A stretch of 58,137 nucleotides of DNA, taken from the IMG/VR virus record IMGVR_UViG_3300014499_000006, positions 1 through 58,137 of that record. One strand, given 5' to 3'. The DNA comes from a virus. Positions within the stretch are counted from its first letter, which is position 1; every line of letters begins with the position of its first letter. The position numbers were made by a program, and so were the translations under genes. Below are positions 11,165 through 38,586 of this stretch, in pieces. The notes under the pieces were generated by a model. It made no database searches. It had not been told where the DNA came from and worked only from the letters and a program-made list of their open reading frames with translations.

Positions 11165-11240
11165 TGGTGGAGGTAGACGGGATCGAACCGACGACCTCAT
11201 CGTTGCAAACGATGCGCTCTCCCAGCTGAGCTATACCCCC
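11165..11240 (-). tRNA. tRNA-Ala(TGC)
   Basis: Cloverleaf with GGGGGTA/TACCTCC acceptor, GCTC D-stem, loop TTTGCAA giving anticodon TGC, T-loop TTCGATC, and encoded CCA. First complete tRNA at the downstream end of the array. Confidence 0.93.
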
Positions 11241-11386
11241 AATTCATCTTCCTGCCAATGTGTTTCTAAGTAACGCAAAAATTTCTTTTTCTTATTTTCA
11301 ATCTTGCGGGTCGCGGGGACTGGCACCCTCTCCCTGGACATTTCCTTCACGAGTTTGACCTTGCTTAGTCTCTTTAGTTTTCTCAT
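11231..11386 (-). CDS. Possible small basic protein ending inside tRNA-Ala (51 aa)
   Basis: ATG at 11386 opens a Lys/Arg-rich frame (MRKLKRLSKVKLVKEMSRER ... KKKKFLRYLETHWQ) whose TAG is formed by bases of the tRNA-Ala acceptor/D-arm junction. No clear Shine-Dalgarno. It fills the 195-bp gap between two tRNAs, which supports a real gene, but composition alone cannot exclude chance. Confidence 0.35.
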   Translation of the reverse strand: MRKLKRLSKVKLVKEMSRERVPVPATRKIENKKKKFLRYLETHWQEDELGV

Positions 11387-11435
11387 AACACACCATAAAG
11401 CGAAAATAAACTTTTGAATAGATTCGCATAAATGT

Positions 11436-11510
11436 TGGAGAGGGAGACGGGAGTTGAACCCGCGACCTGAATATTGGCAATATTCTGCTCTACCGCTGAG
11501 CTACTCCCTC
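11436..11510 (-). tRNA. tRNA-Gly(GCC), copy 1
   Basis: Acceptor GAGGGAG/CTCCCTC, anticodon stem GAATA/TATTC, loop TTGCCAA with anticodon GCC, T-loop TTCAACT, discriminator T, encoded CCA. Confidence 0.92.
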
Positions 11511-11517
11511 TCAATTC

Positions 11518-11595
11518 TGGTAGCGTTGACCGGAGTTGAACCGGCATTCCACTGATTGAAAGTCAGTTTTCCTAGACCATTTAGAAGACAACGCC
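11518..11595 (-). tRNA. tRNA-Glu(TTC)
   Basis: Acceptor GGCGTTG/CAACGCT, D-loop with GG, anticodon stem ACTGA/TCAGT, loop CTTTCAA with anticodon TTC, T-loop TTCAACT, encoded CCA. Confidence 0.92.
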
Positions 11596-11607
11596 ATATT
11601 TAAAAAC

Positions 11608-11683
11608 TGGTGCGCCGTGAGGGAATCGAACCCCCGATTTTCACCTTGTCATGGTGACGATTTTACCGCTAATCTAACAGCGC
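11608..11683 (-). tRNA. tRNA-Val(GAC)
   Basis: Acceptor GCGCTGT/ACGGCGC, D-stem GATT/AATC, anticodon stem TCACC/GGTGA, loop ATGACAA with anticodon GAC, T-loop TTCGATT, discriminator A and encoded CCA. Confidence 0.9.
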
Positions 11684-11686
11684 AAA

Positions 11687-11790
11687 TGGTGTAGGCTTGT
11701 GGGTTTCCCCACGCTGCCGTTCCCTGTTCAGCCCCTCATGAAGAGATGACCTCAGAACAACTGTCACCGAGGTATCCCTCGGAAGCCTAC
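11687..11790 (-). ncRNA. tRNA-like structured RNA in tRNA array (~104 nt)
   Basis: Exactly fills the spacer between tRNA-Val(GAC) and a tRNA remnant. On the minus strand an 8-bp stem GTAGGCTT/AAGCCTAC closes the molecule and is followed by ACCA, like a tRNA acceptor end. Within it are CCGAGG(GATA)CCTCGG, GTGAC/GTCAT, CTC(TTCAT)GAG, GCTG/CAGC and GTGGG(GAAA)CCCAC with a GNRA tetraloop next to the acceptor where a T-arm would be. There is no T-loop consensus and no normal anticodon loop. Not a known family that I recognise. Seen in sequence; function unknown. Confidence 0.6.
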
Positions 11791-11797
11791 GTAAACT

Positions 11798-11835
11798 TGG
11801 TGGAGCTAGTGAGATTCGAACCACCCCAATGCAGT
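11798..11835 (-). pseudogene. 3' remnant of a tRNA gene
   Basis: About 25 nt including encoded CCA, the acceptor 3' strand TAGCTCC and T-loop TTCGAAT are identical to tRNA-Ala(CGC) at 12076, but the T-stem 5' strand no longer pairs and no 5' half is found. Interpreted as a broken tRNA copy. Confidence 0.6.
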
Positions 11836-11844
11836 CCCACGGCC

Positions 11845-11988
11845 CTAAACTTTTTCTGGTGTGTAAATTACGCCATCATCATTAAAACGAATATCACAAG
11901 ACAGACAATGCCAGCGCCATTCATTGGTAGTAGAAATCCAACCGATTTCCCATTGTTCTTTCTTACCGCACTTTGGACACTCTCTCAT
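11845..11988 (-). CDS. Small zinc-ribbon protein (47 aa)
   Basis: ATG at 11988 lies just after tRNA-Gly(CCC). Sequence MRECPKCGKKEQWEIGW ... WHCLSCDIRFNDDG has two CxxC knuckles about 24 residues apart, the layout of a rubredoxin-like zinc ribbon. Longer in-frame versions run through the tRNA and are rejected. Likely a small nucleic-acid or protein-binding module within the tRNA array. Confidence 0.6.
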   Translation of the reverse strand: MRECPKCGKKEQWEIGWISTTNEWRWHCLSCDIRFNDDGVIYTPEKV

Positions 11989-11995
11989 AAAACGG

Positions 11996-12068
11996 AGCGG
12001 ATGGTCGGACTCGAACCGACAAATCTTTCGGTTGGGAACCGAATATTCTACCATTGAACTACACCCGC
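11996..12068 (-). tRNA. tRNA-Gly(CCC)
   Basis: Acceptor GCGGGTG/CATCCGC, anticodon stem TTCGG/CCGAA, loop TTCCCAA with anticodon CCC, T-loop TTCGAGT, discriminator T. The following bases are CCG, so the full CCA is not encoded. Confidence 0.9.
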
Positions 12069-12075
12069 AATAACT

Positions 12076-12151
12076 TGGTGGAGCTAGTGAGATTCGAACT
12101 CACGACCTTCTCGTTGCGAACGAGACGCGCTCCCAACTGCGCTATAGCCCC
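12076..12151 (-). tRNA. tRNA-Ala(CGC)
   Basis: Acceptor GGGGCTA/TAGCTCC, anticodon stem TCTCG/CGAGA, loop TTCGCAA with anticodon CGC, T-loop TTCGAAT, encoded CCA. Confidence 0.92.
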
Positions 12152-12152
12152 A

Positions 12153-12212
12153 CATGGAACGGACATTGAACCCGCGACCTTTCGGTTAGCCACCGACATC
12201 TAGGCATCCATG
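12153..12212 (-). pseudogene. Degenerate tRNA, Ser(GCT)-like, D-arm missing
   Basis: CATGGA/TCCATG acceptor-like stem, T-arm GCGGG-TTCAATG-TCCGT and an anticodon-like hairpin with loop TGGCTAA (GCT) are present, but only about ten bases separate the acceptor from the anticodon stem, so the D-arm is absent and total length is about 60 nt. No CCA. Read as a decaying tRNA; a functional D-armless tRNA is less likely. Confidence 0.45.
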
Positions 12213-12224
12213 AACTTCTAAACT

Positions 12225-12299
12225 TGGAGCGGAAGGCGGGATTTGAACCCGCGACCCCTTCCTTGGCAAGGAAATATTCTACCGCTGAACTACTTCCGC
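12225..12299 (-). tRNA. tRNA-Gly(GCC), copy 2
   Basis: Acceptor GCGGAAG/CTTCCGC, anticodon stem TTTCC/GGAAG, loop TTGCCAA with anticodon GCC, T-loop TTCAAAT, discriminator T and encoded CCA. Clearly different in sequence from copy 1 at 11436. Confidence 0.92.
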
Positions 12300-12305
12300 A
12301 AAATC

Positions 12306-12381
12306 TGGTGGAGCTAGTCGGGTTCGAACCGACGGCCTTAATCATGCCATGATTACGCGCTCCCAACTGCGCCATAGCCCC
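12306..12381 (-). tRNA. tRNA-Ala(GGC)
   Basis: Acceptor GGGGCTA/TAGCTCC, anticodon stem TAATC/GATTA, loop ATGGCAT with anticodon GGC, T-loop TTCGAAC, encoded CCA. Confidence 0.9.
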
Positions 12382-12389
12382 ACGGTTAT

Positions 12390-12445
12390 CAGCGGTTGTA
12401 CTGAGCCATGTCCCCCAACCGCTGACCTTGCCGAACATGGTCAGC
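12390..12445 (-). ncRNA. Two-hairpin RNA between tRNA-Glu and tRNA-Ala
   Basis: Minus strand shows GCTGACC/GGTCAGC (7 bp, 11-nt loop) followed, sharing CAGC, by CAGCGGTTG/CAACCGCTG (9 bp, 17-nt loop). The loops contain ATGT and ACAT, so a loop-loop kissing contact or an alternative fold is possible. No coding sense. Could be a processing signal or a small RNA; stems are seen directly, role unknown. Confidence 0.45.
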
Positions 12446-12452
12446 CAAAATC

Positions 12453-12528
12453 TGGTAGCGCACGCGGGATTTGAACCCACATTTCACACGCTGAGAACGT
12501 GGTTGCCTAGCCGTTAGCAGAGTGCGCC
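12453..12528 (-). tRNA. tRNA-Glu(CTC)
   Basis: Acceptor GGCGCAC/GTGCGCT, anticodon stem CACG/CGTG, loop TTCTCAG with anticodon CTC, T-loop TTCAAAT, encoded CCA. Same acceptor start and D-arm style as tRNA-Glu(TTC). Confidence 0.9.
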
Positions 12529-12539
12529 ATATCTAAACT

Positions 12540-12616
12540 TGGAGCGGACTACGGGCGACGATACCATTACCTCCGGTTTGGAAGACCAGCGCTCTACCAG
12601 CGTGAGCTAAGCCCGC
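12540..12616 (-). tRNA. tRNA-Gly(TCC), atypical T-loop
   Basis: Acceptor GCGGGCT/AGTCCGC, D-stem GCTC, anticodon stem CTGGT/ACCGG, loop CTTCCAA with anticodon TCC, discriminator T, encoded CCA. The T-arm reads ATGGTATCGTCGCCCGT rather than the usual TTCGAAT loop, so function may be impaired. Its first bases include the stop codon of the HNH gene. Confidence 0.8.
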
Positions 12617-13044
12617 TTTTTATTTCGCTTTTGTCGGCATTCTTTGCATTGCCTTTGTAAGCCGTTCCAAATAGCGGAATTTTTTTGAAATTCATCGACT
12701 GAAAGAAACTGTTTATGTTCCGTACACCAACTTGTTCCTTCCGGTCCTACTGATCTAAGACTCATTTTGGTCTTATTGATCTGTCTAGCTGCGCCCGAAT
12801 TACATGCGCGATGCGAAAAAGCAATATTTTCCAAATCCCAATATAAATCTGGGGATGCGTACAACCACGGTTTTTTATGCTCAATACTAAAATCTTCAAC
12901 CGTTTCAAGCTTTAGACCGCAGCGAAAACAGTTGTCCGCCCCAGCTTGCTGCATGTATTTGAAGAGTAAAAGACGCGCCAATCTGTAGTTGGCGGTTCCT
13001 CGACTCATTCCTAATTGTCTTTGAACTTCTTTTTGACTTGTCAC
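12607..13044 (-). CDS. HNH endonuclease, homing type (145 aa)
   Basis: Central HNH/zinc core at about residues 37-85: CFRCGLKL, then FSIEHKKPW (first His), DLENIAFSHRACN (Asn and His), followed by a C-terminal CxxH ... CKEC zinc knuckle. Residues before it (MSRGTANYRLARLL) look like a helix-turn-helix DNA-binding segment. Start chosen at GTG 13044 because GAGAGG lies 6 nt upstream and the hairpin ends exactly there; a TTG at 13080 is possible. Lies between the RNase P RNA and tRNA-Gly(TCC); its last two codons and stop overlap the tRNA. Phage HNH proteins of this kind are selfish nicking or cleaving endonucleases. Confidence 0.8.
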   Translation of the reverse strand: MTSQKEVQRQLGMSRGTANYRLARLLLFKYMQQAGADNCFRCGLKLETVEDFSIEHKKPWLYASPDLYWDLENIAFSHRACNSGAARQINKTKMSLRSVGPEGTSWCTEHKQFLSVDEFQKNSAIWNGLQRQCKECRQKRNKKRA

Positions 13045-13071
13045 GAGCGACCTCTCTAATATAGGTCGCTC
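13045..13071 (-). promoter_or_regulatory. RBS-sequestering hairpin of HNH gene
   Basis: Perfect 9-bp stem GAGCGACCT/AGGTCGCTC with a 9-nt loop; the Shine-Dalgarno GAGAGG spans loop and stem and the GTG start follows the stem directly. T4 homing endonucleases such as I-TevI are known to be silenced on read-through transcripts by this kind of hairpin. Confidence 0.55.
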
Positions 13072-13094
13072 ATAGTTCAAAAACTCATAAACTT

Positions 13095-13474
13095 GTACCA
13101 GTCCTATTAGCCGGGGTTCTGTTCCGCTTGCGCGGCGACAACCATTCGTCTAGGCGTTGAATTACTCCAACGCTCAAGCATGCTACCCGCTGATTCATAA
13201 CGGAACGAGTAGTTCCTGTCAGCCTATTTGCACTTGCTTCCCGTGAAGATTGCTCGTTTCACCCACATCAGGGGACTTGGTCGGGCATTTCACATCAACA
13301 CTACCGACGTGAATCTTACGCGCTTCCAAGCACACCTTCTGTGACTCGTCTCTGTAGCTCTAATTGTCAACGGCTTGCGCCGTCGCCGGGGAGTTACCCC
13401 GCACGGTACTCTATGAAGCCCCGAACTTTCCCTCCCGCAGAAACTTCCTGCCAGCGGTTGTCCCGAACTGGTAC
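13095..13474 (-). ncRNA. rnpB: RNase P RNA, bacterial type A (complete)
   Basis: A full catalytic RNase P RNA. P1 is formed by the ends GTACCAGTTC and GGACTGGTAC (10 bp). Conserved region I reads GGGAGGGAAAGTTCGGGGC then TTCATAGAG (13409-13435), followed by GTGCGGGGTAACTCCCCG. CAGAGACGAGTCACAGAA, the ACGAGCAATCT/GCAAATAGG block, the P15 loop CGGGTAGCATGCTTGAG with the GGT that pairs with tRNA CCA, CCTAGACGAATGGTTGTC, and the 3' core AACAGAACCCCGGCTAAT (P4 strand) are all present in the canonical order and spacing of E. coli M1 RNA. It would process tRNA 5' ends, normally with the host RnpA protein; no rnpA is seen here. Begins 3 nt after tRNA-Cys. Confidence 0.95.
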
Positions 13475-13477
13475 ATT

Positions 13478-13554
13478 TGGAGGATGGAGAGGGAATTGAA
13501 CCCCCGCATGACTCCCTTTGCAGGGGAGCGCCTTTCCTACTTGGCTATCCATCC
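13478..13554 (-). tRNA. tRNA-Cys(GCA), copy 1
   Basis: Acceptor GGATGGA/TCCATCC, anticodon stem CTCCC/GGGAG, loop CTGCAAA with anticodon GCA, T-loop TTCAATT, discriminator T and encoded CCA. Its CCA is separated from the RNase P RNA by only three bases. Confidence 0.92.
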
Positions 13555-13558
13555 AAAC

Positions 13559-13771
13559 TTACTTGCCGCGCACGATCTTCAAAACTTCACGCGGCGAAAC
13601 TTTTTCTGCTACCGTCTCCGACATCCGAGACATCATTCTCTTAGGAACGTCGTAGTGGTCTTTGTGAAACCAGCAACGCTTAATACCCAACTGCCGCGCT
13701 GCTTCATGTAGATTCTCTTTCGAGTACGGCACCGTGATCAGATGCCGCTGTTCATCGTAGAGAATCTTCAC
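13559..13771 (-). CDS. DUF4031-like protein (70 aa)
   Basis: Short protein whose centre, LHEAARQLGIKRCWFHKDHYDV, matches the typical DUF4031 pattern (LH.FA..LGI...WF....HYD.P). Starts with GTG preceded by GGAGAGAC. DUF4031 proteins are small, found in phages and bacteria, and have no established function. It ends 4 nt before tRNA-Cys and starts 7 nt after the GIY-YIG gene, so it is part of the array transcript. Confidence 0.75.
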   Translation of the reverse strand: MKILYDEQRHLITVPYSKENLHEAARQLGIKRCWFHKDHYDVPKRMMSRMSETVAEKVSPREVLKIVRGK

Positions 13772-13778
13772 GTCTCTC

Positions 13779-14429
13779 CTAAAATTTCATCCGGCGACCA
13801 ATCAACCAACCTTGTTCAATGTGGCTATTGATCTCGTCCGGTGAGACAGGCTTTGATCTCTGCGATTCGAGATGATACATCCACTGTTTTCCAAAGCGTC
13901 CGTTGCTCTTACCTTTATGCGTTTCGCTAAGTCTAGCCTTTGTCTCGGCGGTATGATGCTGTCCTGTCCACTTTTGTAACATCGAAGGAATTCGAGCTTT
14001 GTAGTCTTGAGTACGATACTGTCTAACTCGATTGATCCTGTCAGTAAATCGCTTCTTTACCTTTGGGTCAGTTTTTATTTTTCCAATTGTAACCCGATTT
14101 CCTTTCACGCCGTTCTCGTTCGAGTTATTCAATCCCTTACGATTGATCCAGTCAAACCCACCTTCACCGCCAGCTTTCAGGTTGTAACACAGTGGATCAA
14201 CTTTCGCTTCAACCACGAGTTTCTTTTCGAGATCGAAAGCTTCTCTCTGGATTTCAAAGACAGCCAAAATTTCCTTGCGAAAATTCTGCTCTCCGTACTT
14301 CGCAACGGCTCGTTTGATGAACTTCCCAGAACCAAGGTAGTCATCATTCGGATTGTCCGTCTTGTGGACACCGATGTAGAACTTGCCGTTGACCAGATTC
14401 ACAGTTTTGTAGACTGTGTATTTCATCAT
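13779..14429 (-). CDS. GIY-YIG homing endonuclease with NUMOD3 motif (216 aa)
   Basis: N-terminal GIY-YIG nuclease: the two signature strands appear as TVYK (residues 4-7) and KFYIGVHKT (16-24), then R and E in the helices (REAFDLEKKLV) and the YNL Asn. The linker is basic, and residues about 170-195 carry a NUMOD3-type DNA-binding motif (HTAETKARLSETHKGK). This is the architecture of T4 Seg/I-Tev-like free-standing homing endonucleases. Start at ATG 14429 with AGGAAGG just upstream, inside a hairpin. Sits between tRNA-Asp and the DUF4031 gene. Confidence 0.85.
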   Translation of the reverse strand: MMKYTVYKTVNLVNGKFYIGVHKTDNPNDDYLGSGKFIKRAVAKYGEQNFRKEILAVFEIQREAFDLEKKLVVEAKVDPLCYNLKAGGEGGFDWINRKGLNNSNENGVKGNRVTIGKIKTDPKVKKRFTDRINRVRQYRTQDYKARIPSMLQKWTGQHHTAETKARLSETHKGKSNGRFGKQWMYHLESQRSKPVSPDEINSHIEQGWLIGRRMKF

Positions 14430-14433
14430 GAAC

Positions 14434-14465
14434 CTTCCTGAGTACTCTACTTAATACTCAGGAAG
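14434..14465 (-). promoter_or_regulatory. RBS-sequestering hairpin of GIY-YIG gene
   Basis: Perfect 11-bp stem CTTCCTGAGTA/TACTCAGGAAG with a 10-nt loop; the Shine-Dalgarno AGGAAGG lies in the 3' strand of the stem, 4-5 nt before the ATG. The hairpin would hide the site on a full-length tRNA-array transcript. Confidence 0.6.
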
Positions 14466-14474
14466 TCACGAAAG

Positions 14475-14552
14475 CGGTGTGTACGGGATTTGAACCCGTG
14501 TGATATCTTCCGTGACAGGGAAGCGAGGAAGACCAGACTCCTCCAACACACC
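14475..14552 (-). tRNA. tRNA-Asp(GTC)
   Basis: Acceptor GGTGTGT/ACACACC, anticodon stem CTTCC/GGAAG, loop CTGTCAC with anticodon GTC, T-loop TTCAAAT, discriminator G as usual for Asp. CCA is not encoded. Confidence 0.9.
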
Positions 14553-14556
14553 AAAC

Positions 14557-14626
14557 TGGCGGGGGTAACGGGATTCGAACCCGCAACCATCGGCGCGACA
14601 AGTCTACCAGTTGGAACTATACCCCC
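14557..14626 (-). pseudogene. tRNA-like gene lacking an anticodon loop
   Basis: Seventy bases with a perfect acceptor GGGGGTA/TACCCCC, a normal T-arm (GCGGG-TTCGAAT-CCCGT), discriminator G and encoded CCA, but only 18 nt between the D-loop and T-stem, too short for D 3' strand, anticodon arm and variable loop. It could still be an RNase P substrate, but cannot decode. Read as an internally deleted tRNA. Confidence 0.6.
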
Positions 14627-14635
14627 AAATTTGGG

Positions 14636-14709
14636 AAGCGGATACGGGATTCGAACCCGTGCTTGTCTGCTTTGCAGGCAGATGCCTTTAACCACTTGGC
14701 TAATCCGCT
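14636..14709 (-). tRNA. tRNA-Cys(GCA), copy 2
   Basis: Acceptor AGCGGAT/ATCCGCT, anticodon stem TCTGC/GCAGA, loop CTGCAAA with anticodon GCA, T-loop TTCGAAT, discriminator T. Next bases are CCC, so CCA is incomplete. D-stem only 3 bp. Confidence 0.8.
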
Positions 14710-14717
14710 TATAAATT

Positions 14718-14793
14718 TAGCCGCGATGACTAAGGGGCTGATCCCCATTCCAGCGCTCCGAAGAGCTTTCTGGTATCTATCACCGTCGCGGAC
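14718..14793 (-). ncRNA. UUCG-hairpin structured RNA between tRNAs (~75 nt)
   Basis: Minus strand: closing stem CCGCGA/TCGCGG extended by TGA/TCA; inside it CCAG/CTGG stacked on GCTC(TTCG)GAGC with the very stable UUCG tetraloop, then GGGG(ATCAG)CCCC. It starts about 9 nt after a tRNA CCA and ends about 9 nt before the next tRNA, so it is tRNA-sized and would be released by tRNA processing. It has no T-loop or anticodon. I do not recognise the family. Confidence 0.55.
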
Positions 14794-14801
14794 GGCACAT
14801 T

Positions 14802-14877
14802 TGGTGTAGAGTGACGAGACTCGAACTCGCATTCTCCGGGTGCAAACCGAAAGTCCTCCCATTGGACGACACCCACA
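14802..14877 (-). tRNA. tRNA, probable Ala(TGC), acceptor imperfect
   Basis: D-stem GTCC/GGAC, anticodon stem TTCGG/CCGGA, loop TTTGCAC with anticodon TGC, T-arm GCGAG-TTCGAGT-CTCGT, and ACACCA at the end. The acceptor (GTGGGTG against CACTCTA) has mismatches at its first two pairs unless a bulge is allowed, so identity and function are uncertain. Confidence 0.65.
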
Positions 14878-14887
14878 CATTAAAATT

Positions 14888-14966
14888 TGGTATTCCGAGA
14901 GGGACTCGAACCCCCGATGATACTTGCTTGTAGGGCAAGTGGTTTCGCCGCTCACGCCATCGGAAT
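14888..14966 (-). tRNA. tRNA-Val(TAC)
   Basis: Acceptor ATTCCGA/TCGGAAT, anticodon stem CTTGC/GCAAG, loop CCTACAA with anticodon TAC, T-loop TTCGAGT, discriminator A and encoded CCA. D-arm is irregular. First tRNA at the promoter side of the array. Confidence 0.87.
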
Positions 14967-17392: not shown

Positions 17393-17446
17393 AGTCGTCT
17401 CACCGAAATAGAAACTCCAAATGCCCAGTTTTCATAGCTTGATACT

Positions 17447-17735
17447 CCCCACGCCTAAAGGCGAGGGATTCTAGGCGGCAAAGCCGCCCTTAACTGTTTC
17501 AACCAGCGCTGCTTGCTTTCGCAAGACTTACACACTGTCCGCAGTCGTTTAACGACTCCATGTATCCCGAGGCGACGATAATTCCCGAATGCAGCATTGA
17601 TTTAGCCAGCTTGGTTTTCGCAAGACTTTCAATGCTTATTTTGTAGCCTTCGAGTGCCATGCAAGAAATATACCACAACCTGCGATCTAATACAAGCACT
17701 TTCCGCCTTATATCCCCAGCCTGAAGGGCGTGGCT
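17447..17735 (-). mobile_element. IS200/IS605-type mini-element 2
   Basis: Bounded by imperfect hairpins CCCCACGCC(TAAA)GGCGAGGG at 17447-17467 and CCCCAGCC(TGAA)GGGCGTGG at about 17714-17732, with an extra GGCGGC(AAA)GCCGCC hairpin at 17474-17488 at the 3' side where tnpB guide RNA would end. Contains a deleted tnpB. Ends differ from those of the element at 9412, so it is a separate family. Confidence 0.6.
17499..17660 (-). pseudogene. tnpB: TnpB internal-deletion remnant (53 codons)
   Basis: ATG at 17660 (MALEGYKISIES) continues into LAKTKLAKSMLHSG, which resembles the (K)LAKSI.D.GW helix in the middle of IS605 TnpB, then jumps to ESLNDCGQCVSL, reminiscent of the TnpB C-terminal tail. The catalytic Asp/Glu motifs and zinc finger are missing. 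Non-functional as nuclease. Confidence 0.5.
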
Positions 17736-22936: not shown

Positions 22937-23012
22937 TGGAGCCCTTGGGATGGAGTTGAACCATCCGACCCTTCCGTTGCACACGGAATGCTCTACACTG
23001 AGCTACAAGAGC
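22937..23012 (-). tRNA. Isolated tRNA, anticodon TGC (Ala-like), atypical
   Basis: Acceptor GCTCTTG/CAAGGGC, D-stem GCTC/GAGC, anticodon stem TTCCG/CGGAA, T-arm GGATG-GTTCAACT-CATCC, discriminator T and encoded CCA. The loop TGTGCAA has G instead of the universal T at position 33 and the D-loop lacks GG, so it may be a degraded or specialised tRNA. It lies alone, 8 kb from the array. Confidence 0.65.
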
Positions 23013-23019
23013 GCTCTGG

Positions 23020-25191
23020 TTAATTCACCGCAAAAACTAAATCATCATAATCATCATACTCTCCACCAGAAGAATTACCACAAGCCGATGGATTCACATG
23101 TCCCTCATATCGAAAATGTGCTCGTACAGCTTGTAAATTGCCGGAGGCTGGGAGAGTAAATGTAGTCGATAAAATATTTTGTGCATCTTTAGTGGGCTTA
23201 AGCGTAGCGATATAAACCCAAGTAGGATTTACAACATTTGAAGTAACGTAAAGGTCAAGAGAATCGCTTTCAAAATCCTTTCGAGCCCATACTGTGGCTG
23301 TTATCGTTGCTTTTGTACCCGCGGTTAACAACCCACCAGATACAGAAGCTACCGCAAGGCGATCATTTGATTCATAGGAGTGAAATACCCCCGAGTTCCC
23401 ATCCCCGCAAGAGTTATTGATTGTATTGGGGTGATTTTGTTCCGCACCGTTATGCACATTTCCGCGACCTAAAAGTAGAGTTGGGCCTGAATCACAGGAA
23501 TTACTGACAACTGTACATGCTGGAGTTTTATAGGTTGGATTATAAGTTGCTTGTAATCCTACTCCGGTTGGAGCGCCTGTTAAAGTATTGATTAAAGTTG
23601 CCCCATTAGGACTACCCCAACCAGTTACCATATCATACCCAACAGTAGCCGGATGCCCATTGCTCCCGCTTGTAATATCGTGAAAATTAATAGTGTACGC
23701 AGCACCGAAACCAATGGGATAAATCAAGGGATTCAAGAAACCTAAAGTAGTACCATGATTAGTCATGTTCTGCTGATTCACTAAAGCCATATAGCCAGCC
23801 CAGCGAGGCGCAGCATAGCTAGTACCCCCAGTTTGATTGTAAGTGCAAGCGCCATCATCACACATAATATTATCGAAATTTGCTTCTGCGGCAACATCCG
23901 GAACATTACGAATTGCTGTAGAAGCACCATTAGAATTTGCTACTCCTACTTGCCAGCTAGGAATTGCAAAACCATCGTCCGCTGGACCACCACTGCTATC
24001 CGACCAAGCCGTTTCTGTTTGCCAAGTTCCTCCAGCACCATTTGTAGTTAAATCCGTACCGCCAACAGCTACAACATACGGATCTTCAGCTGGGTAGCTG
24101 CTATCATTATTGTTATTTCCCGTATACTTACCAGCATCTCCAGAGGCTACAAAAAGATTTTGACCCTGTGCTGCGAATTCTTTAAAAATAGGGTCATCAT
24201 CAGTTATATCATCGGGACTCCAACCCCAAGAACAACTCAATTGTTTGGAAATGTTGTCCACAGCCATTTGATTAAAAATATCCACATCTCCGGTACCGAT
24301 GGCGGAATTGCCTGGGGCGATGTAAACCCGTACAGAAGTTAACCCCGGTGCCATACCGATAGCTTGAGCGATATCCAAAGCTTGCTCTCCATCATCTCCA
24401 TCAGAGCCAGCACTTGCACCATCGACAAGAATATTCTGTACAGGTACGGTATAAGCAACACCCCCCATATCAGAATTTACATCTGCGATATTATAACCAT
24501 CGAACTCTAACATGCCCACAGATTGACCGGTACCTGTCAAAGTACCTGATCCATAATATGCCGCTCGCATATCCGATGGACGGAAAGAACCGCTAGGACC
24601 AGACCCTGCAACTACATCTGATAGACGAGCGTTAAATGAACGCTTAATCAATCTACGACTAGGAATAGAGAAATTATTTAAACCAGCAATACGATAGATT
24701 GGAACATCTAAATCAAGAGACGGTTCTACATCTGGAGAATAAAAATTACGATTTTCAACAGGATGTTTATATAACCCCATTTTTACATTGAAAGCTTTTT
24801 CTATTTGTGCTGTAGATCCAGTGATATCAACAAGTATACGATTAGTGTGTTGTTTGTACACAAAAAACCCCTGCTTTATAGCAAAACGAACTACCGCTTG
24901 ATAATCCTGTTCCGTTGGACCAAACTCTTTAGTGAATTGTTCAGGCGTTAGAAACTGGTGATACAAAGGACTTGATGGGGTGTTTATTTGCTGTAAAAGA
25001 GCTGTTAAAGTTGACTCATTGCGGAGAGGCAACATAATAGCCATAATCAATTGACGATATGCTGGAAGGTCACTTACACGAGCAGCCGATGTAACTTCTT
25101 TGCGGACATGACGTTTCAATGGATGGTTTCTAGCAAAAACTGGGGTTACAAATAATACAAAAACGATAAGTGCGGATACAATACGATTCAT
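23020..25191 (-). CDS. Sedolisin-family (S53) serine-carboxyl peptidase (723 aa)
   Basis: Secreted pre-pro-protease. Signal peptide (MNRIVSALIVFVLFVTPVFA), then an activation pro-domain to about residue 190 (LTPEQFTKEFGPTEQDY), then the S53 catalytic domain. The Ser-Glu-Asp set is visible: E269 and D273 in GEQALDIA, oxyanion D352 in VASGDAG, and S458 in GGTSYAAP; spacing matches kumamolisin. Ca-binding FHDIT ... GYDMVTGWGSP follows, then a C-terminal beta domain of about 190 residues. The family works at acidic pH outside the cell. AGGAGGAAAT precedes the ATG. Unusual cargo for a phage; perhaps attacks envelope proteins or benefits the infected host. Confidence 0.92.
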   Translation of the reverse strand: MNRIVSALIVFVLFVTPVFARNHPLKRHVRKEVTSAARVSDLPAYRQLIMAIMLPLRNESTLTALLQQINTPSSPLYHQFLTPEQFTKEFGPTEQDYQAVVRFAIKQGFFVYKQHTNRILVDITGSTAQIEKAFNVKMGLYKHPVENRNFYSPDVEPSLDLDVPIYRIAGLNNFSIPSRRLIKRSFNARLSDVVAGSGPSGSFRPSDMRAAYYGSGTLTGTGQSVGMLEFDGYNIADVNSDMGGVAYTVPVQNILVDGASAGSDGDDGEQALDIAQAIGMAPGLTSVRVYIAPGNSAIGTGDVDIFNQMAVDNISKQLSCSWGWSPDDITDDDPIFKEFAAQGQNLFVASGDAGKYTGNNNNDSSYPAEDPYVVAVGGTDLTTNGAGGTWQTETAWSDSSGGPADDGFAIPSWQVGVANSNGASTAIRNVPDVAAEANFDNIMCDDGACTYNQTGGTSYAAPRWAGYMALVNQQNMTNHGTTLGFLNPLIYPIGFGAAYTINFHDITSGSNGHPATVGYDMVTGWGSPNGATLINTLTGAPTGVGLQATYNPTYKTPACTVVSNSCDSGPTLLLGRGNVHNGAEQNHPNTINNSCGDGNSGVFHSYESNDRLAVASVSGGLLTAGTKATITATVWARKDFESDSLDLYVTSNVVNPTWVYIATLKPTKDAQNILSTTFTLPASGNLQAVRAHFRYEGHVNPSACGNSSGGEYDDYDDLVFAVN

Positions 25192-37926: not shown

Positions 37927-38586
37927 CTACCTTTCTTTTCCTATTAAAACCCCTTTTGGAATCACTGGATTGAAAATTTCAATTTCACCCGTTCCTAAGC
38001 ATTTGTAACAGGTGTGATATTCAACTGCCTTTTCTTTAATTTGCTTCCCGCCGCTTCCATCGCATTGTCCGCACCGCACAACACGAGAAAATTCCTTAAT
38101 TCCCCGACCCAGGCACTGGGGACAAGTATTAGGAACCTGCTTAGGGCCATTTCCAGTGCCGCTACAGCGTAGACAAGGTTGCGAGTAGGCAAACCCCGCA
38201 AAACACCAAGAGCAGCGCTGGTAGCCCGTAGGATGATGTTCTGTGTACCCTTTGTGGTTACAATCCTTGCAATCAGTTCCGTTTTTTCGAGAACCCAGAC
38301 CCAAACCCAGGTCATTTAGGGGAGTACCTTCGACAGTTTTTGTTAAGGGAAGACTGTCTACAAACGCCCAAATCGGCTCTTGATCCAGCAACGCTGAATA
38401 CAAATCCTTCATGTGAATGAATTCTTCGTCATTCTGCTTATTGTTGGCTAAGTCAGGGCGAAGGCGTCTCACAGCATTTCGATACGCAGCTTTAAGTGCC
38501 TCGTGAGTCAGAGGTAGCTTGCATCCTAAAAGCATAACCACCAAATTTTCAGCTTCTCGCTGCTCCAGCTTCTCCAGCTTCTTCAT
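37927..38586 (-). CDS. DnaJ-like zinc-finger protein (219 aa)
   Basis: N-terminal J-like helices (LTHEALKAAYRNAVRRLRPD) where the HPD tripeptide is RPD, so Hsp70 stimulation is doubtful. Residues about 105-205 hold DnaJ-type cysteine repeats: CKDCNHKG, CSWCFAG, CLRCSGTG, CPQCLGRG, CGQCDGSG, CYKCLGTG, enough for two or three zinc centres of the DnaJ/anti-TRAP class. Likely a chaperone-like or nucleic-acid-binding adaptor. Confidence 0.7.
   Translation of the reverse strand: MKKLEKLEQREAENLVVMLLGCKLPLTHEALKAAYRNAVRRLRPDLANNKQNDEEFIHMKDLYSALLDQEPIWAFVDSLPLTKTVEGTPLNDLGLGLGSRKNGTDCKDCNHKGYTEHHPTGYQRCSWCFAGFAYSQPCLRCSGTGNGPKQVPNTCPQCLGRGIKEFSRVVRCGQCDGSGGKQIKEKAVEYHTCYKCLGTGEIEIFNPVIPKGVLIGKER

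Follow-up and report, generated by a model that had tools for sequence, protein, structure and literature searches.

Phage tRNAs and RNase P

Few ribozymes are near-universal, and RNase P RNA, which is among them, has hitherto been treated as cellular. Phage T4 relies on the RNase P of its host to process its tRNA precursors (see the review PMC11143913), and phage tRNAs appear as substrates in a 2024 review of the enzyme. Two further systems are close to the one described here, namely the HDV-like theta ribozymes, which are associated with tRNAs in gut phages and have a proposed role in viral tRNA maturation (PMC10879173), and the huge phages, which carry translation genes, many tRNAs and tmRNA (PMC7162821); RNase P is not mentioned in the text of the huge-phage paper. 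The preliminary description of the present locus stated that no well-characterized phage rnpB was known, and this held: no earlier description of a phage or viral rnpB was found in the open literature searched (subscription papers and preprints being outside the scope), and a virus-encoded RNase P RNA is new as far as that literature shows, the class A fold itself being known.

Here we analyze a virus record of 58,137 bases (IMG/VR record IMGVR_UViG_3300014499_000006; the whole stretch is referred to as the window), in which a class A RNase P RNA gene lies within a tRNA array. Like T4, the phage has closely spaced tRNAs (3-nt spacers) that need RNase P, but T4 depends on the host enzyme, whereas here the RNA subunit is phage-encoded. 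As with the theta ribozymes, a phage ribozyme adjoins tRNAs; however, theta ribozymes are small, self-cleaving and concerned with tRNA 3′ ends, whereas RNase P RNA is a trans-acting ribozyme of the multiple-turnover type concerned with 5′ ends. The carriers resemble the huge phages in being large and in having many tRNAs and tmRNA. With cellular class A RNase P RNA (RF00010), the phage RNAs share the full-length covariance match, the conserved regions CR I-V, P4 with its bulged U, the P6 pseudoknot, P15-P17, P18 and the GGU, but they differ in their location inside phage tRNA arrays, in a P4 that is more variable, in having mostly lost P13/P14, and in the absence of rnpA from the same record. 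In our reading, a large, probably jumbo-class tailed phage likely encodes a working class A RNase P RNA that uses host RnpA, with expression and catalysis remaining inferred.

A Class A RNase P RNA Gene within the tRNA Array

The preliminary description, made from sequence alone, had placed a complete A-type RNase P RNA gene at 13,095–13,474 within a tRNA array, and named an Infernal search with RF00010 as the check and the loss of P4 or CR residues as a possible refutation. The identification held: cmscan assigns 13,474 to 13,091 on the minus strand to RF00010 with 169.1 bits (E 7.7e-53), far over the gathering score of 100 bits, and the alignment covers model positions 1–367 of 367. All of the listed sequence blocks were found and the catalytic core (P4, CR I-V, GGU) is intact; the 3′ end had been set 4 nt short of the actual limit at 13,091. 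The location held as well, with 15 tRNAs predicted by ARAGORN on the same strand. The features are as follows.

13,091–13,474, minus strand: class A RNase P RNA gene (rnpB), RF00010 169.1 bits, with an identical copy in contig G001
13,419–13,427, minus strand: 5′ strand of P4, AGU(U)CGGGG, with the bulged U at 13,424 and eight pairs with 13,109–13,116
13,109–13,116, minus strand: 3′ strand of P4, CCCCGGCU, with covariation among relatives
13,408–13,411, minus strand: 5′ strand of the P6 pseudoknot, GAGU, pairing with ACUC at 13,207–13,210
13,207–13,210, minus strand: 3′ strand of the P6 pseudoknot, ACUC, in L17, pairing with GAGU at 13,408–13,411
13,185–13,187, minus strand: GGU of the P15 internal loop, within a CGGGT present in all phage RNAs
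13,271–13,336, minus strand: P12 insert (GTGTGCTTGGAAGCG...CCGACCAAGTCCCC), with a related module in other phage RNAs
11,165–14,966, minus strand: array of 15 tRNAs (Val, Ala, Asp, Glu, Gly, Cys; ARAGORN)
13,478–13,554, minus strand: tRNA-Cys(GCA), CCA encoded, separated by 3 nt from the RNase P RNA that follows it
12,607–13,080, minus strand: HNH endonuclease ORF (PF01844, E 5e-5), adjoining the RNase P RNA downstream
13,779–14,429, minus strand: GIY-YIG (SegE-like)/NUMOD3 endonuclease ORF (PF19835 below cut-off, PF07460 above), upstream, within the array

The universal CR I-V nucleotides and the class A elements P16/P17 are present, and against dinucleotide shuffles the 384-nt RNA has a folding-energy z of -3.1. 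In P4 the helix has slipped by one base, leaving the layout of three pairs, U and five pairs intact. The RNA belongs to class A by its fold, although the class A elements P13/P14 are absent (P12 is also altered); this absence is not decisive for the fold class, because bacterial genes fetched with the same signature lack both elements too. In known RNase P, the GGU of the P15 loop pairs with the CCA of tRNA, and CCA is encoded in nearly all tRNAs of the window, which has one further tRNA outside the array, at 22,937. Promoter and terminator scans of the array gave hits at chance level only.

Viral Nature of the Record and a Probable Chimeric Join

A host chromosome fragment or a mis-binned contig, rather than a phage, would be the most immediate alternative, and the preliminary description had raised a host-chromosome origin as a possible refutation. 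The window encodes a baseplate J protein, a baseplate-wedge domain, a RecA/UvsX recombinase and a 5′-3′ exonuclease, and its UvsX and 1582-aa baseplate protein have about 44–45% identity to their counterparts in Tunturi_5, an isolated 309-kb jumbo phage with an Acidobacteriota host. Three IMG/VR contigs of 332, 456, and 463 kb (G003, G012, and G013) carry the array, the RNase P RNA, UvsX and the baseplate protein together, each with a weak terminase match. Among the first 12 relatives, the five longest all exceeded the RF00010 cut-off and the seven without a match were fragments of 20–76 kb.

In favor of the host or mis-binning alternative, the window appears to be joined at a repeat (17.44–17.69 kb). 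An independent contig of 102 kb (G001) follows the window below 17,686 and as far as 10,101 at least, with 99.7–99.85% identity over 10.1–17.7 kb and an identical RNase P RNA. G002 matches at 99–100% over the stretch between about 41 kb and 17,439, beyond which, as in relatives, it runs into another tRNA array (Tyr, Leu, Pro, Met). The repeat of about 250 bp (17,439–17,686) is common to G001 and G002, with one more copy in G001; its end (CCCCACGCCTAAAGGCGAGGGATTCTAG) may resemble those of IS200/IS605-TnpB elements. In nearly all relatives with known positions, the RNase P array and UvsX share a strand and the array lies about 16–26 kb upstream, whereas in the window it lies downstream. Because G001 and G002 diverge at the shared repeat and relatives place the array upstream of UvsX, the window is likely a chimeric join, at 17.4–17.7 kb, whose two parts come from one phage or from close relatives. 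This join leaves the RNase P conclusion untouched, as G001 provides independent confirmation of the RNase P side. This agreement, together with the gene linkage on the large contigs, led us to reject a host-fragment identity, which is all but excluded; the contig is a phage.

Distribution among Large Phages

The preliminary description had proposed a search for homologs in phage databases, and it underestimated the generality of the gene: at least 25 further IMG/VR records of up to 463 kb, from two or more lineages, have RF00010 matches. With the window, 26 phage records exceed the cut-off, representing 23 distinct RNAs. The search used exact-pattern scans followed by the covariance model, and 26 is hence a lower bound; the first viral pattern recovered just one true RNase P, and the count excludes 2-kb scraps as well as short contigs whose rnpB is host-like. 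Matches of 316–335 bits on short contigs (L038–L040, L046–L050, L053, L056, L057) were rejected as probable host rnpB beside prophages.

The RNase P RNA lies within tRNA arrays or next to them, and all tRNAs found on the stretch examined share its strand. In many relatives a neighboring tRNA is 3–17 nt away, and in ten distinct phages a tRNA lies within 4–11 nt downstream. Lineage 1, defined by UvsX and/or the baseplate protein as in the window, comprises G003, G004, G006, G012, G013, G015, G019, G023, G027, G028, G031–G034, and G036, and the place of the RNase P RNA in the array is conserved across it. G014 and G018 form another lineage, with Terminase_6N and a tail sheath, and their local order, with tRNA-Leu(CAA) before and tRNA-Arg(GCG) after the RNase P RNA, recurs in G021 and G024; further cases are G016, G017 (360 kb, with a terminase) and G030/G035. 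A tmRNA gene is found nearby in six phages with the RNase P RNA. Where tmRNA genes adjoin the RNase P RNA and tRNAs (L042, L043, L059, L060, L062, L063), their tag peptides include VESEFALAA, AEQEFALAA, and AKPLAMYAMA.

Tunturi_5, LR745208 and Bacillus phage G have no RF00010 match. Tunturi_5 has 43 tRNAs but no match, and the gene is therefore not essential to this kind of phage. In INPHARED, the window RNA had no relatives and the other phage RNAs gave partial matches only, to host-looking or unannotated fecal DNA records, so that no convincing phage RNase P RNA was found in 50,697 deposited phage records with four query RNAs.

Selection on the Fold

Selection maintains the fold of the phage RNase P RNAs. 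In an RNAalifold alignment of 14 lineage-1 RNAs, 51 of 66 predicted pairs have compensatory double changes. P4 consists of eight pairs and a bulged U in all 23 distinct phage RNAs, in variants including AAG(U)CCGGG, AGU(U)CGGGG, ACU(U)CGGGA, AAG(U)CGGCG, and AAG(U)CCGAA, and its sequence is more variable than in the bacterial genes fetched; eight pairs and the bulged U were reached in 0.09% of control trials with shuffled strands and in 20% of those with swapped partners. The P6 pseudoknot, which is outside what the folding program can predict, is retained in 22 of the 23 RNAs with several different tetramers, whereas permuted partners match in 8.4 on average and none of 10,000 permutations was as good as 22/23 (fixed register, with 5′ tetramers read by eye; an any-match version was dropped as too loose). 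CR I-V and the GGU are conserved across the phage RNAs, as is CGGGT in all. P13/P14 are lost in nearly all and kept in G004; one batch of records was found by a pattern that presumes this loss, yet among the others all but G004 still lacked them.

It could be argued that the RNA is a decaying passenger gene acquired together with host tRNAs, as homing endonuclease ORFs surround the locus and Tunturi_5 lacks the RNase P RNA. Against this reading stand the compensatory changes throughout the fold and the P6 pseudoknot in 23 divergent RNAs, as well as the array position conserved across lineage 1; it is very unlikely, being already contradicted by covariation.

Two structural observations stand apart from this question. 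In the 360-kb phage G017 (L079, 1501–2150), an HNH endonuclease ORF is situated inside the RNase P gene, at the site of the lost P13/P14. A small conserved module (GTGTGCTTGGAAGCG...CCAACCAAGTCCCC; window 13,271–13,336, L037, L064, L217, L219), which matches no Rfam family, occupies P12 in the window, P9 in G012, G023, G032, and G034, and a position near P3 in G036.

Proposed Function and Alternatives

The presence of the gene, its intact core, the selection on its fold, its viral location, the same-strand linkage to tRNAs and the lack of a detectable rnpA are directly supported, and co-transcription, release, the use of host RnpA, cleavage and any benefit to the phage are inferred, there being no expression or cleavage data. 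In the mechanism we propose, the RNase P RNA would be one unit of a multi-tRNA transcript and would be released by processing of the flanking tRNAs; where a tRNA lies 4–11 nt downstream, the RNase P cut at its 5′ end would also create the 3′ end of the RNase P RNA. The released RNA would then bind the host RnpA protein, and together they would remove the 5′ leaders from dozens of phage tRNAs and, in some phages, from tmRNA, with substrates recognized by the GGU of the RNA through the encoded CCA of the phage tRNAs. The benefit may be a tRNA supply that is kept up during infection, and the 51 and 64 tRNA matches in G003 (332 kb) and G012 (456 kb) could be a plausible load for a dedicated enzyme. 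The role as a tRNA-processing ribozyme, suggested in the preliminary description, thus has support in the sequence, with catalysis remaining inferred, but the independence from the host enzyme that was raised there as one possibility is not shown. The use of host RnpA is proposed because rnpA (PF00825) was found in 0 of 23 phage records searched, compared with 10 of 14 control genomes, so that host RnpA is probably still required. Most of the phage records are fragments, and the missing rnpA could reflect this or a diverged protein.

The absence of a phage rnpA is also compatible with two other readings. The RNA could bind host RnpA as a decoy or regulator that slows host tRNA maturation without cleaving phage pre-tRNAs, as any action would go through the host protein or through none. 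However, the metal-binding P4 bulge, the CCA-pairing GGU and the T-loop-binding region are conserved, which a protein decoy would not need, and the RNA is located among CCA-encoding tRNAs, hence we consider a decoy unlikely. Alternatively, the RNA could be active without protein or with an unrecognized phage protein, as a fully host-independent RNase P. At high Mg2+, class A RNAs are known to cleave unaided by protein, but the reduced S domain (P13/P14 mostly lost) makes protein-free efficiency less likely, and the regions on the RnpA side (CR IV, J18/2) are conserved; this reading is likewise improbable. RNase P RNA is under selection in many large phages, and under the preferred reading, a ribozyme working with host RnpA, tRNA 5′-end processing joins the functions supplied by viruses. 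These phages supply natural RNase P RNAs with an altered P4 and a reduced specificity domain, and make replacement of, versus competition with, host tRNA maturation testable.

Origin

The phage RNAs nearest to the window RNA share 79–81% identity with it, and the closest member of a bacterial set, which is pattern-biased, reaches about 75%. In a tree of 61 sequences (272 columns, with the same bias in the bacterial sample) the window RNA falls inside no bacterial group. With this sample, neither the identities nor the tree give any sign of recent capture from a host, and the data neither establish nor exclude a single clade comprising every phage RNA (AU p 0.54, 272 columns). A bolder reading combines an ancient viral lineage of the ribozyme, which moved independently of hosts from one large phage to another, unrelated one, with a dedicated RNA-maturation system that comprises tRNAs and tmRNA and takes over host RnpA; taken jointly, we hold these to be possible but more doubtful than credible.

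Further Features of the Window and Its Relatives

The tRNA arrays are sorted by amino-acid set, and the sorting is conserved across relatives (L080–L083, L085–L091). Apart from Cys, the codons read by the RNase P array (window 11,165–14,966) are all GNN (Val, Ala, Asp, Glu, Gly); other arrays in relatives are Tyr-Leu-Pro-Met-Phe, Ser-His-Arg-Asn-Lys-Gln, and Thr-Ile-Gln. G012 (L080) and G003 (L087) each have two tRNAs with a CTA anticodon, reading TAG, beside Gln, Ile, and Thr tRNAs. This suggests TAG suppression in these phages. In the window, however, TAG serves as an ordinary stop, and a recoded genetic code was rejected there, as read-through gains little. The window also encodes a 723-aa Pro-kumamolisin/subtilase-like protease that matches GEVED weakly (23,020–25,191), here in a phage, and a small DnaJ-like protein (37,927–38,586) with J-domain and zinc-finger matches under the curated cut-offs.
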